A DNA stretch of 64,000 bases from Oscillatoria sp. CS-180 (lineage in GTDB: Bacteria > Cyanobacteriota > Cyanobacteriia > Phormidesmidales > Phormidesmidaceae), in NCBI RefSeq assembly GCF_028330965.1, contig NZ_JAQMUB010000088.1, positions 186,001 through 250,000 on the forward strand, in the 5' to 3' direction. Positions within the stretch are counted from its first letter, which is position 1. Each line of letters opens with the position of its first letter. Made by a program: the position numbers and the translations under genes. The notes under the pieces were generated by a model. That model was given only the letters and a program-made list of their open reading frames with translations. It ran no database searches and was not told the origin of the DNA. Of this stretch, positions 15,322 through 30,899 are shown in pieces.

Positions 15322-15429
15322 GTTATAGCTGTAACCATCTAGGCTTGTGCATTCTCAATAGCATCTGGGTGCTTAGCATAGGTCAGATGGCTCGCCGTCT
15401 TGTCCTAACGGAACTGGCGACAGCTATAC
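15322..15429 (+). repeat. Interspersed repeat family 1, copy C
   Basis: A full copy: ATAGCTGTAACCATCTAGG, then CTTGTGCATTC, then GCATCTGGGTGCTTAGCATAG, then GATGGCTCGCCGTCTTGTCC, then AACGGAACTGGCGACAGCTAT. The termini ATAGCTGT and ACAGCTAT are inverted repeats. The right end joins directly to a decayed DUF255 reading frame. Confidence 0.85.
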
Positions 15430-26728: not shown

Positions 26729-29566
26729 TTATCCCGGTGGCTGAGCCAAGTTTCGAAAGCGTGTGTACTGTGGTTCAAACAGCAGCTTGACCGTTCCCGT
26801 GGGACCGTTCCGGTGTTTGGTGATGATGATTTCTGCAATGCCGCGATCAGGCGTATCAGGATCGTAGTACTCCTCGCGATACAGCATCATAATGACATCT
26901 GCATCCTGTTCAATGCTGCCGGATTCCCTCAAATCCGACATCATAGGGCGTTTGTTGGTGCGGGATTCGACGCCTCGGCTGAGCTGCGAGAGTGAAATAA
27001 TAGGAACGTTGAGCTCGCGGGCAAGTCCTTTGAGCGATCGCGTAATCTTTGACAATTCCTGGACTCGGTTGTCGCTGCTGCCCTCCATCAATTGCAAATA
27101 ATCAATCAGGATTAAGCCCAAAGCACCGCCCTGTTCAGCTTGCAAGCGCCGAGTTTTTGAGCGCATCTCATTAACTGAAATATTGGGCGTATCATCGATG
27201 AAAACCGGCATTTCTGAGAGCTGATTAATCCCTTCACCCAAAATGGTCCATTCATTAGGATTAAGGCGACCCGTGCGGAGGCGACTGGTTTCTAGCGCTA
27301 ACTCGCTAGACAGGAGACGATAGACCAACTGCTGCTTCGACATCTCCAAGCTGAAAATAGCAACCGGTAATTTCTGCGTATTGGCGATATTCCGCGCGAT
27401 ATTCAGAACGAATGCTGTGTTGTGGACACAAATATCATTAGCCACAAAGTTGTGAGTCTCAGGAATAGTTAGGTCATAGACTTGTCGATTACCTAAGGCT
27501 GTAATTTCAAGAATTTCATCCCAGTAGATGTCACTAGTGGCGATCGCTTGAAGTTCAGGATCATCCAGGGCCGTTGCCAGAGCAAAGAGACGATTGCGAC
27601 TAAGAGCCCGTTTCCCAACATGAATATTGCTCGTGTTCAACAAGCCTGCCCTAGTCGCTAGGGACTTCCAGGTTTCGGTCCCTTTTGCTGATTGAATTCG
27701 CCGCCAAATCTCAACAGGCACTAGATCACGATTGGTCTGATAGCGACGCTCAGCAAGTGCATCCGCAGCTTTTTGAAGTGCCAACTCTTTACCAAAAATA
27801 CCGATCTCACAGATGAAAAACTTAATAGACTGTGCGTCTGTGATATCTAATTGCCATGCTGATCGACGGCTATTTTGATACTTGATTGAGCGATGTTTGA
27901 GACGAGCAATGATGCCAAATCGCAGGAGGAGATGCTGTACTTGTCTGATCAACACCTCGCTGACGGAGGCAAATCCGACCTGCACTTGACCACTTGCCAA
28001 CACCGTAGCCCATCCGTCTGTCGCAAAAAGACGATTGAGGAAAAGAGCAATCTGCGATTTTTGCAACTTAAACAGTTGTGCAGGGACCTCCTTTTGATGC
28101 GCCGACTTACCCCAGAGATCCATATGCTGCAACCAAAGAGTCATTGTGTTTTGACTCATCCAGCGAATTGTCGCAAGCCCTCCAGGGGCAAGCACTTTGG
28201 ATTCTATGTTCAACAACTGACAGAGCGTGTTGAAAACCGATGGATTGGGGGCACACTCACCTTGCTGCCACAGCGTCACCAAGCTGGGACTAACTTGCAA
28301 TTGCTGTGCAAGCCATCGTGCGGAATAGCCAGAATTCTGGATAGATCGATGCAGGATTTTGCCGAACTGGCGGCGCTGGATCTGTACACTGCTATTGCTG
28401 GCAGTAACGTGAAGGGTTAGGGTTCTTTTACCACCTGAATCCTCCTGCCGGATTTTCACACCTGGAAACAAGCTTGCTGCTTCGCAGAAATCTGCCTGAA
28501 TTAAAGGGTTTGCATTCGTGAATTGAGGTGCGGTTTGGGTGAGACACCCATCACCTATCAGATAAGCTAACAGCTTAATCTGATGGTTTGGTAGTGTCTC
28601 CGTTCCGAAAATAGGTAGGCAGCGAGGCACTGCAATTTTTTGTCCAACCTGAAGTTGACTGAGCGATCGCCAGCCCTCAATGGTTAGATAAGGATGACTC
28701 AGCGTTGTTTCAATCACTCGCCCTGTGCCAGTTCTAACCCGATAGACGGGCTTGAGGCCATCATCAATGTACGCACTAGGTCGAGTTCTAACAAACCGCC
28801 AATTTGCTTGTAGCGTTAACAGGTCTGCTGTTTGAGCTTGATAAATTTCCTCAATAGTCTTGAGGCTGCCGTCCGCCAGCAGGATTTTAGTATCCGCACT
28901 CAAGCATTTGCCCATTGATGGTCTACCGGCTGCAATGATCAGATCAGAGCGTTGGAAACCTTGGGTCATGGCGTCCAAATCATAGAAACCACAGGGGATA
29001 CCAGGTAAAACGATTCCCTCTGCTCGTTCCTCGATCTCAGCAAACGTTTCGATCAAGATGTCTGCTGTAGAGGTAAGGGCCTGCTGGGGACGGTCTTGGG
29101 TGATGGCAAAGAGCTTCTGTTCAGCCTCATCCAGAGAAACTTCCAGCGGTTGGTCAGCTTCGAAGCCCAATTGAGAAATTTCACCCCCAATTTGGATTAG
29201 CCGCCGCCGCATGAATTTTTCCATCACTAAGGCAGCATAGCGATCAATATTGGCAGCGCTGACGGTGCGGTCGACCAGTTGAGCAATTCGGCTTTGCCCA
29301 CCCACTTTGTCTAATAGCTCTCGGTCCTTCAGCCAAATAGTGACCGTCATTAGGTCAGTCGGCAGGCCCTTAGTATGCAGATCGATCGCGGCCCGATAAA
29401 TGGTTTTATGTGCACTGATGTAGAAGGCATCAGGATTTAGAATCTCCATCACCCGTCCCATGGCTTCTGGGTCAAGCAAAATGCCGCCTAAAATGGCTTC
29501 TTCAGCTTCTACATTTTGGGGAGGTAGGCGATCGCTATAGCCCTGGAAATCGAGATTCTGGACCAT
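26729..29566 (-). CDS. dnaB: Replicative DNA helicase DnaB, intein-containing precursor
   Basis: A 945-residue precursor. The host protein is DnaB: the N-terminal domain begins [23 protein letters not shown], and the C-terminal RecA-like domain carries GRPSMGK-TAF (Walker A), [12 protein letters not shown] (Walker B) and [20 protein letters not shown]. It unwinds DNA at the replication fork as a hexamer. A 496-residue intein (precursor residues about 221-716) interrupts the Walker A motif between Lys and Thr; the mature helicase is about 449 residues. The [13 protein letters not shown] site used by another known cyanobacterial DnaB intein is uninterrupted. ATG 29566 ([18 protein letters not shown]) is preferred over TTG 29620 because it matches other cyanobacterial DnaB starts. 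Confidence 0.96.
27419..28906 (-). mobile_element. DnaB intein with LAGLIDADG homing endonuclease
   Basis: Starts with Cys ([14 protein letters not shown]) and ends VHN before an extein Thr. The block B motif is TTLSHPYLT with the T-x-x-H residues. Two endonuclease motifs are visible: [11 protein letters not shown] and [11 protein letters not shown], the paired LAGLIDADG-type segments with their acidic residues. Between them lies an XRE-like helix-turn-helix ([20 protein letters not shown]). The C-terminal splicing blocks are [15 protein letters not shown] and HN. The endonuclease and splicing motifs all look intact, so it could be an active homing element. Confidence 0.92.
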
Positions 29567-29980
29567 CAGCCTCTTGGCAATAAAGAACGGTTTTACTACC
29601 GTAGCTGATTGCCCGATCAAATGGGATGCCTTTTTCCCTCATATGACCTAGTAGTCCCCAGAGAACTCATTTCACTAAAATTTCAGATCTTTCTCATCCT
29701 AGATTAAGGAAGATGAAAATCGAGTGTGGTATCTAGGTCAAAGCCCTTTAGCTTAAAGGAAAGGAACTTTAACCAATCTATAACCTATGGATGAAAGATG
29801 TCCCTTCCTTAGGGTTAATTGATGATCGCTGACTTTCTTTTAGTCTGATGAACGTCAGCTAAATTGAGCACTCCATGACAGTGCTTAAGGCTCTTGTGAG
29901 ATGCAAAGAGTCCTCAGAAACATTATTGGAGCAACGCCAGTCTGTGGATGAGTTTGCTGTTTGTTCTTTATGGAGTTTTT
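29567..29980. other. Long spacer between dnaB and the repeat-protein gene
   Basis: About 410 bases between two divergent genes. It holds a short hairpin (AGCACT / AGTGCT near 29868-29886) and AT-rich promoter-like sequence. The last part has TGGAG at 29971-29975, the ribosome site of the next gene. No open frame, tRNA or repeat-family copy was seen. A leader RNA or small RNA is possible but not supported. Confidence 0.4.
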
Positions 29981-30721
29981 ATGAAACGCTTTATCGTTTG
30001 TTCTTTGTCAGCAACGCTAGCGCTCACTGTGGGAACTGTCGCTCGTGCTGAAATGCATCAAGAGCCTACCGAAGGCGTCATTTCCCCAGATAGCCAGTCT
30101 CCTAACAACCGGGAGGTCCCTGGAGAGGGCGTATCTGATTCTGATAGCGAGATGATGGATGAGCCAGAGGGAACTGACGGCATCATCTCCCCTGATAGTC
30201 AGTCTCCCAATAACCGAGAGATTCCTGATGAGGGAGCACTTGAATCCGATAGTGAAATGATGATGGAAGAGGATTCTTCTCTGACTGACGGCATCATCTC
30301 CCCAGATAGCCAGTCTCCCAATAACCGAGCAGTTCCCGGTAGCGGAACAGCTCAGCGTCGTCCTATGACCTACGAAGAGGCGTTCGAAATTTTCAGAGAA
30401 ACGGGTGAAATCAATCCTTACGAAGGCTCAACTGAGAATTCTAGCCCCACTGACGGCATTATCTCACCGGATAGTCAGTCTCCTAATAATCGGGACATTC
30501 CCGATCAGCCTGCTGCTGATCCCATGATGGACGACATGGAGTCTCCCGATATGACTGATGGTGTAATTTCACCGGATAGTCAGTCTCCTAACAATCGGGC
30601 TGAACCCGACGATAGTACTACTGATGGCATGGTGGATGAGTCTGAGGATATGGATGAGACGGATGGCGTAATCTCGCCAGATTCTCAGTCTCCCAACAAC
30701 CGAGAAACGCCACAGCGCTAG
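29981..30721 (+). CDS. Secreted repeat protein with six ISPDSQSPNNR motifs
   Basis: A 246-residue protein of unknown family. A signal peptide (MKRFIVCSLSATLALTVGTV, cleavage after ARA at about 23) is followed by six exact copies of ISPDSQSPNNR, at residues 34-44, 69-79, 106-116, 161-171, 196-206 and 231-241. All except the first are preceded by TDGI or TDGV (the first by EGV). Repeats are spaced 35, 37, 55, 35 and 35 residues apart, and the linkers are acidic and Met-rich (SEMMDEPEG-like). The DNA of the units differs at third codon positions, so the protein motif is under selection. ATG 29981 has TGGAG 5 bases upstream. A cell-surface or periplasmic binding role is a guess. Confidence 0.85.
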   Translation: MKRFIVCSLSATLALTVGTVARAEMHQEPTEGVISPDSQSPNNREVPGEGVSDSDSEMMDEPEGTDGIISPDSQSPNNREIPDEGALESDSEMMMEEDSSLTDGIISPDSQSPNNRAVPGSGTAQRRPMTYEEAFEIFRETGEINPYEGSTENSSPTDGIISPDSQSPNNRDIPDQPAADPMMDDMESPDMTDGVISPDSQSPNNRAEPDDSTTDGMVDESEDMDETDGVISPDSQSPNNRETPQR

Positions 30722-30744
30722 TATGCCAACCCCTTTTTGCGTAC

Positions 30745-30847
30745 ATAGCTTAGCCATCTAGGCTTGTGCACTTAATCGCATCCGAGCGCTTAGCCCATAG
30801 CCAGATGGCTCGCCGTCTTGTCCTGACGGAACTGACGACAGCCATAA
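30745..30847 (+). repeat. Interspersed repeat family 1, copy F
   Basis: ATAGCTTAGCCATCTAGG, then CTTGTGCACTTAATCGCATCC, then GCGCTTAGCCCATAGCC, then GATGGCTCGCCGTCTTGTCC, then GACGGAACTGACGACAGCCATA. It is a full copy, sitting between the stop codon of the repeat protein and its terminator. It is therefore probably transcribed in the 3' untranslated region. Confidence 0.85.
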
Positions 30848-30866
30848 CGGCTAGCGTCGCTGTCAA

Positions 30867-30899
30867 GGCAAGGAACGCGATCGCGTTCCTTGCCTTTTT
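30867..30899 (+). terminator. Intrinsic terminator centred on a HIP1 octamer
   Basis: A perfect 28-base palindrome with arms GGCAAGGAACGCGA, followed by TTTTT. The centre is GCGATCGC (HIP1). It ends the repeat-protein transcript about 145 bases after the stop codon. Confidence 0.85.

Follow-up and report, generated by a model that had tools for sequence, protein, structure and literature searches.

A probably exported repeat protein with six identical motif copies in Oscillatoria sp. CS-180 and its relatives in other cyanobacteria

What keeps six copies of an 11-residue motif identical within one protein, and what might a protein built from such copies do? The question is raised by a gene in the window, by which we mean the whole 64,000-nucleotide stretch of the Oscillatoria sp. 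CS-180 genome that was analysed.

Six motif copies behind a signal peptide

The gene at 29981–30721 (+, stop codon within the range) encodes a probably exported repeat protein of 246 residues with homologues in 10 other genomes; the open reading frame and its coordinates had been given correctly in an earlier note made from the letters of the window. An in-frame ATG is also present at 29948, and certain relatives have in-frame ATGs still farther upstream. An alignment of relatives becomes conserved from the position corresponding to 29981, and seven Nodosilinea-type genomes have AAGGAG directly ahead of the corresponding ATG. Inspection agreed with the note that there is a signal peptide, which we read as MKRFIVCSLSATLALTVGTVARA (29981–30049, +). 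It is of Sec/SPI type by inspection, with a putative cleavage site after an ARA read by eye, and a signal peptide of the type MK[RN][FI][IL][LV]xSLSA[TA] was found in all ten aligned members. Localisation by signal sequence is treated in PMC12341915. Within 350 bases 5′ of the gene, the seven Nodosilinea-type genomes (L020–L022, L024–L026 and L049) share a conserved block of about AATCTACAACTATCAGTCGATT ... TTAAGGAAATGCAGCAAA, a possible regulatory site; no upstream block common to these genomes and the window's genus was seen.

The six copies of ISPDSQSPNNR that the note had described are exact. They lie at 30080–30112, 30185–30217, 30296–30328, 30461–30493, 30566–30598 and 30671–30703 (all +), with spacings of 35, 37, 55, 35 and 35 residues. 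Their DNA differs synonymously, again as described: pairs of copies differ at 2–8 of 33 bases, and 8 of the 11 codon positions vary. When synonymous and nonsynonymous change was compared between the units, as the note had suggested, the mean pS was 0.63 and the mean pN 0.03 (uncorrected), the latter departing from zero despite identical residues because of serine switches between AGC/AGT and TCT. A repeat search recovered six copies of 47 nucleotides, five of them 74–94% identical to the reference copy, and Tandem Repeats Finder reported no array in the gene, even at score 30. Given the synonymous divergence and the lack of a tandem array, the motif copies are not a very recent duplication, and the earlier proposal that their identity is held at the protein level is right for this gene.

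A family with conserved modules and diverging linkers

Of the 63 genomes in the GTDB family, 10 (counting the one the window comes from) gave a member in protein and profile searches, always a single gene; a search at the level of the order took in the same 63 genomes and found the same 10. A scan of GTDB species genomes gave eight named loci, in Halomicronema sp. CCY15110, Nodosilinea nodulosa PCC 7104, Nodosilinea sp. LEGE 06152 and LEGE 07298, the filamentous cyanobacteria CCP5, CCP3 and CCT1, and Shackletoniella antarctica. Seven of these loci belong to the ten, and LEGE 06152 adds an eleventh genome with the family. With the family present in 11 genomes there is the wider conservation that the earlier note had looked for, and its contrary scenario, a recent duplication without such conservation, is rejected for the window gene.

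Beyond these genomes we found little. In 388 genomes drawn evenly from the class, a 19-residue unit profile (A4; the best 23 candidates at most scored per genome) matched units at E ≤ 1.7e-7 in the ten family genomes only, and within that scope it gave no strong unit match in any other gene. Outside the family the best match had E 0.016, and one degenerate unit in the congener G002 had E 0.035. Loosening the threshold to E ≤ 0.5 gave matches in 99 of the 388 genomes, those beyond the ten being taken for short chance matches. The full profile (best 7 candidates at most per genome) matched in 11 of the 388. The match in the eleventh, G119 (E 6.7e-4), covered 35 positions only, with two stops inside, and was discarded. 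The motif was not found in other proteins of the window's own genome, plasmids and phages gave no tblastn match at E ≤ 0.1, and none of eight stretches in viral contigs that fitted the peptide pattern was confirmed. Presence is also patchy among genomes: three of the window's genus (G003, G005 and G006, 90–99% complete) had no family match, so that any role of the protein must be dispensable. In G001 the gene is short, with 132 residues and three units, and its match extends beyond a stop. What emerges for the cyanobacteria is a clean family, open to experimental test, of disordered repeat proteins that are probably exported; among the sampled genomes its hosts form a sharply delimited group.

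The family is built on a module of 16 residues, G[VI][IVL][SA]P[DN]xx[SG]PNNRAxP, of the GVISPDSQSPNNRAVP type, present in 3–6 copies per protein and lying mostly within G[VI]xxPxxxxPxNRxxP; the protein L021, for example, has six PxxxxPxNR modules. We gathered 50 units from ten proteins with a pattern requiring PxxxxPxNR, which makes those four positions invariant by construction. At the free positions, G was found in 47 of the 50, [VI] in 50, [IVL] in 46, [SA] in 48, [DN] in 49, [SG] in 48, the first N in 45, A in 36 and the final P in 47. In the whole-protein alignment, made with no selection of rows, the residues G, S, P, P, N, N, R and P of the first unit were invariant in all ten proteins. 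Nodosilinea-type proteins have a distinctive first unit, SRFE[YL]RxNSL...LSPxxxGPNNRA, and their later units and linkers resemble each other inside one protein, which points to a more recent expansion or to homogenisation. The linkers have diverged in the window's genus. Modules are spaced 34–38 residues apart, with one long spacer of 53–56, in three genomes of that genus, 37 and 40 residues apart in G001, and 39–50 residues apart in the seven Nodosilinea-type proteins.

Modules and linkers have changed at different rates. Between the window and Halomicronema CCY15110, the signal peptide had a pN of 0.13 at a pS of 0.68, the 16-residue modules 0.09 at 0.71, and the linkers, meaning all sequence besides these two, 0.44 at 0.77. 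Linker pN/pS (0.20–0.73) was above module pN/pS (0.11–0.30) in all seven pairs compared, the ratios being rough because pS is near saturation in the wider pairs. Module ratios were highest in pairs with G002 (0.27–0.30), as expected from the degenerate units of that genome. The signal peptide ranged from 0.05 to 0.33 and was not always below the linkers (0.26 versus 0.20 for G024–G023). The neighbouring DUF58 protein is 83–84% identical between the window and CCY15110 (G004) or G002, compared with 59% and 51%, respectively, for the repeat protein, which therefore evolves fast outside its modules.

Composition, disorder and readings of function

The ten mature proteins, 2108 residues in all, contain no Cys and a single Lys, and L021 has neither in 250 residues. 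This disfavours crosslinking through Lys or Cys, a role raised in the earlier note. Pro (12.0%), Asn (11.5%) and Ser (10.7%) are abundant, Met makes up 3.6% and His 0.2%; in five neighbour proteins in the window, Lys accounts for 2.9–5.7% and Met for 0.9–2.0%. The linkers had been described as acidic and Met-rich, and the two halves of that description fared differently. Acidity is limited to three genomes, with a mature net charge of −31 to −46 in the window, CCY15110 and G002 and of 0 to −10 in the other seven members, so charge is not the conserved property. Met enrichment is the wider feature, and some linkers have no Met at all. Met-rich linkers might handle metal in the periplasm, as a Cu/Ag sponge like SilE or PcoE, and the Met content relative to the five neighbours and the MM and MDM clusters in many linkers would fit this. 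However, several linkers lack Met, His is scarce and Cys absent, and the conserved positions of the module hold no Met, so that we consider metal handling highly unlikely.

By the charge–hydropathy rule, all ten mature proteins fall on the disordered side, L003 narrowly. AlphaFold, run with a nine-row alignment, gave no confident fold model of the window protein (mean pLDDT 43, pTM 0.14), a low confidence that is weak evidence of disorder. It predicted a lone low-confidence helix at residues 131–141 in the long linker (30371–30403, +; block pLDDT about 66), a stretch found in only two of six genomes of the genus, the window's (G000) and CCY15110 (G004). Hydrophilins are recognised by Gly above 6% and high hydrophilicity, and the ten mature proteins range from 5.3 to 16.5% Gly, with GRAVY of −0.60 to −1.33; the mature part of the window protein has 6.7% Gly and a GRAVY of −1.23, and two of the ten members fall below 6% Gly. 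These values, the strong negative charge in three genomes, and names such as Halomicronema and Shackletoniella antarctica, which hint at salty or cold habitats, would suit a protective or matrix filler of the hydrophilin-like sort, with which the sheath or periplasm would retain water, salt or ions; its motif would be a structural repeat with no specific partner. Such a filler would explain the composition but not 16-residue modules under more constraint than the linkers, and the charge is not conserved across the family; we think this explanation rather unlikely.

Searches of Pfam, NCBIfam, PHROGs and PDB sequences returned nothing convincing for the window protein, in keeping with the initial view that no named family has this motif; weak matches such as KPWE (0.084) and VARLMGL (0.039) were taken for chance. 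One relative appeared to point to a known family. The Nodosilinea nodulosa protein (L020) scored 34.9 bits against Spo12 (PF05032; cut-off 20.5), over three stretches of which the best spans 11 residues; the likeness is a short T-D-x-x-x-S-P-x-S kind of stretch, whose letters we take to be those of the Spo12 profile. The window protein reached 11 bits (E = 4), a score exceeded at six other places in the same genome, and 10 of 11 family proteins scanned had no Spo12 match over the cut-off. Spo12 proteins are, moreover, eukaryotic and nuclear. We judged membership to be chance, with the score of L020 summing short repeat stretches and the window protein under the cut-off, although the cut-off passed by L020 could mislead automatic annotation. 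The GVx7PN spacing of the module recalls, on our assumption, the thrombospondin type 3 (TSP3) calcium repeat. That repeat uses Cys and Asp ligands; the Cys and most of the Asp are missing from the family module, no mature protein has any Cys, and TSP3 was absent from the Pfam matches of nine members at E ≤ 10. That the proteins belong to either known family is extremely improbable.

The reading we favour, tentatively and at a little under an even chance, sees in this lineage-specific protein, exported and disordered, a multivalent array: a series of short docking motifs presented outside the cytoplasm, all addressed to one envelope partner. Of the roles proposed in the earlier note, binding is thus the one we retain. 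The protein would be located in the periplasm or on the cell surface, where each module would dock the same candidate partner and disordered linkers of roughly constant length would serve as spacers. A single molecule could thereby gather several partner molecules, by avidity or clustering, and would need no fold itself. We favour such an array because the modules are more conserved than the linkers in every pair compared, because the six copies are identical despite their synonymous divergence, and because of the regular spacing, the predicted disorder and the lack of a strong unit match elsewhere in the 388 genomes. Against it, the constant spacing could also follow from duplication with few indels, the linkers are themselves under some constraint, and the modules of G002 are degenerate. 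There is also no conserved neighbour gene, and G003, G005 and G006 gave no family match. The module is small enough for peptide synthesis, and should it indeed bind something in the envelope, a peptide of 16 residues would pick out the partner.

The same architecture could instead be that of a multi-copy peptide precursor, exported and cut in its linkers by a protease that frees identical motif peptides as an extracellular signal; we hold this to be unlikely, and equally that such a signal would pass between the cells of a filament or between filaments. A signal peptide followed by several near-identical short peptides in faster-changing spacers, with no confident fold, is what such a precursor would look like. 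In plants and yeasts, CEP and alpha-factor precursors combine a signal peptide with near-identical repeated peptides in variable spacers. The likeness is by architecture only: the kingdom is different, and no conserved processing sites were seen in the window family. By eye the linkers hold no conserved cleavage signal, there is no basic pair in the module and hardly any Lys at all, and among the 388 genomes (best 23 candidates at most per genome) no other gene had a strong motif match. We know of no receptor for a PNNR module peptide and of no link between this family and HetR. Freed modules, if they exist, would be signalling peptides of a new sort, not belonging with PatS, PatX and HetN.

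The closest precedent for a precursor is PatX, a Sec-exported protein of filamentous, heterocyst-forming cyanobacteria with a conserved short motif, which PMC12756182 describes as exported and then cut by PatP; PatX is also treated in PMC7761841. However, PatX has one short RG(S/T)GR-type motif and no spaced array, whereas the window family has 3–6 spaced copies of an unrelated module, and RG(S/T)GR is absent from the window protein sequence. The host's PatX-like protein was the top non-family match of the family N-terminal profile in its own genome (E 0.0016), a point in favour of the precursor. Other unrelated signal peptides match that profile equally (E 9e-4 in G036 and 0.002 in G056), and what a loose search returned from outside the family, from E 9e-4 upwards, was unrelated proteins whose starts are signal-like. 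When the query was the CCY15110 signal peptide, the PatX-like protein came first outside the family and none of 1,000 shuffles reached its score. With that of the window, it scored 49 and another signal-like start 50, which speaks against the precursor and leaves a derivation of the signal peptide from PatX unsupported.

The loose search also passed by two nearby small proteins in G056 (L042; 109 and 110 residues) with MKRFILS signal peptides and a common FNLQTLRLSEFDSRNKS stretch. The PatX-like protein of the host (L061; G000:C49:74518–74697(−), 60 residues) ends GGTGRREILS, not RGTGR. GGTGR also occurs in two congeners (L062 and L063) and another genus (L064), and CCY15110 (L065) has RGTGRRQILS. 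For proteins labelled PatX by motif (L061–L065), GGTGR is, as read from the sequences, a natural change in the HetR-inhibiting pentapeptide.

Neighbours, a shared slot and the 3′ region

That the gene stands alone, as had been noted, is borne out by its surroundings (neighbour names were assigned by eye): it is convergent with a DUF58 gene and divergent from dnaB. The dnaB gene is kept beside it in G002 and DUF58 in CCY15110; at the seven Nodosilinea-type loci the gene is convergent with an ABC-F-like gene. No neighbour is conserved across the family, there being dnaB and/or DUF58 in the window's genus and the ABC-F-like gene in the Nodosilinea type. The DnaB helicase frame of the window (26729–29620(−), 963 residues) has a long insert after GRPSMGKC, ending HN, which we read by eye as an intein; at the same place dnaB encodes 449 residues in G003, and so has no such insert, and 945 in G006.

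The slot between DUF58 and dnaB differs among congeners. In G003 it is empty, the two genes adjoining directly about 165 bases apart, and a gene of a second repeat family, which we call FDELR, lies on the far side of dnaB (L092:3894–4514(+)). In G006 the slot is filled, in the same orientation, by a different signal-peptide repeat gene with many FDELRRENLDKDAV repeats (L091:4397–5236, −). This FDELRRENLDKDAV (FDELR) family is multi-copy, with matches at E ≤ 1e-5 in 30 of 63 genomes and up to 13 places per genome, where places may be gene pieces and several have internal stops; the window's genome has nine, none at the window gene. The FDELR family passes NCBIfam TIGR02953, pentapeptide MXKDX repeat proteins (50.3 bits, cut-off 41), and no Pfam cut-off, and its FDELRRENLDKDAV motif strings were not found in PMC literature text. 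MXKDX proteins consist, like the window protein, of a signal peptide and then short repeats with nothing else, but the repeat is a different one, and the window protein matched no NCBIfam family at E ≤ 10, TIGR02953 included. Short tests of the signal peptide and the helix gave no sign of kinship between the window protein and the FDELR family. The helix as a relic of that family found no support either, shuffles reaching its score 956 and 460 times per 1,000.

The unrelated repeat gene at this site in one congener is a hint of rapid turnover among such genes, which may substitute for one another. One could combine this with the precursor, supposing that the protein releases as many as six identical PNNR peptides as a signal, either along the filament or into the mat, and that two unrelated repeat families with signal peptides are interchangeable at the dnaB/DUF58 site of congeneric species, a composite that we find unlikely. 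To our knowledge, no spaced multi-copy peptide precursor of a filamentous cyanobacterium was known before. Whatever probability the readings weighed here leave over belongs to some explanation outside them. In PMC literature text the longer motif strings were absent, and the five letters spnnr occurred only in papers on other subjects, judged by title; in the literature on multi-copy precursors, on exoproteomes of these genera and on MXKDX, we recognised nothing on the window family. The family, the module and the shared slot thus appear new to the searches made, and a signal peptide with short repeats is a known kind of arrangement.

Downstream of the gene, the HIP1-centred terminator and the repeat that the earlier note had placed in the 3′ untranslated region both proved real as sequence features. 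A perfect palindrome centred on HIP1 (GCGATCGC) occupies 30865–30896, with two 16-nucleotide arms, no gap and five T following (feature 30865–30899, +, with the T5). Its 32 nucleotides fold at −25.8 kcal/mol (z −6.2), and it is a probable intrinsic terminator; a scan for consensus terminators did not list it. Rfam gave a single match around the gene, far under its gathering score.

The repeat, at 30744–30846 (+), is one copy of a dispersed element of about 103 bp that is found in at least 41 places in the genome, this one included, when the best 40 of 275 candidates were scored; the same search also returned a short reverse-strand self-match of the HIP1 palindrome. A consensus of 21 copies has the ends TATAGC...GCTATA, their alignment shows sharp borders, and the element has an internal inverted repeat. 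No Rfam match was found in four copies, and the element looks like a non-autonomous mobile or REP-like repeat. A second copy lies within the window at about 15325–15428.
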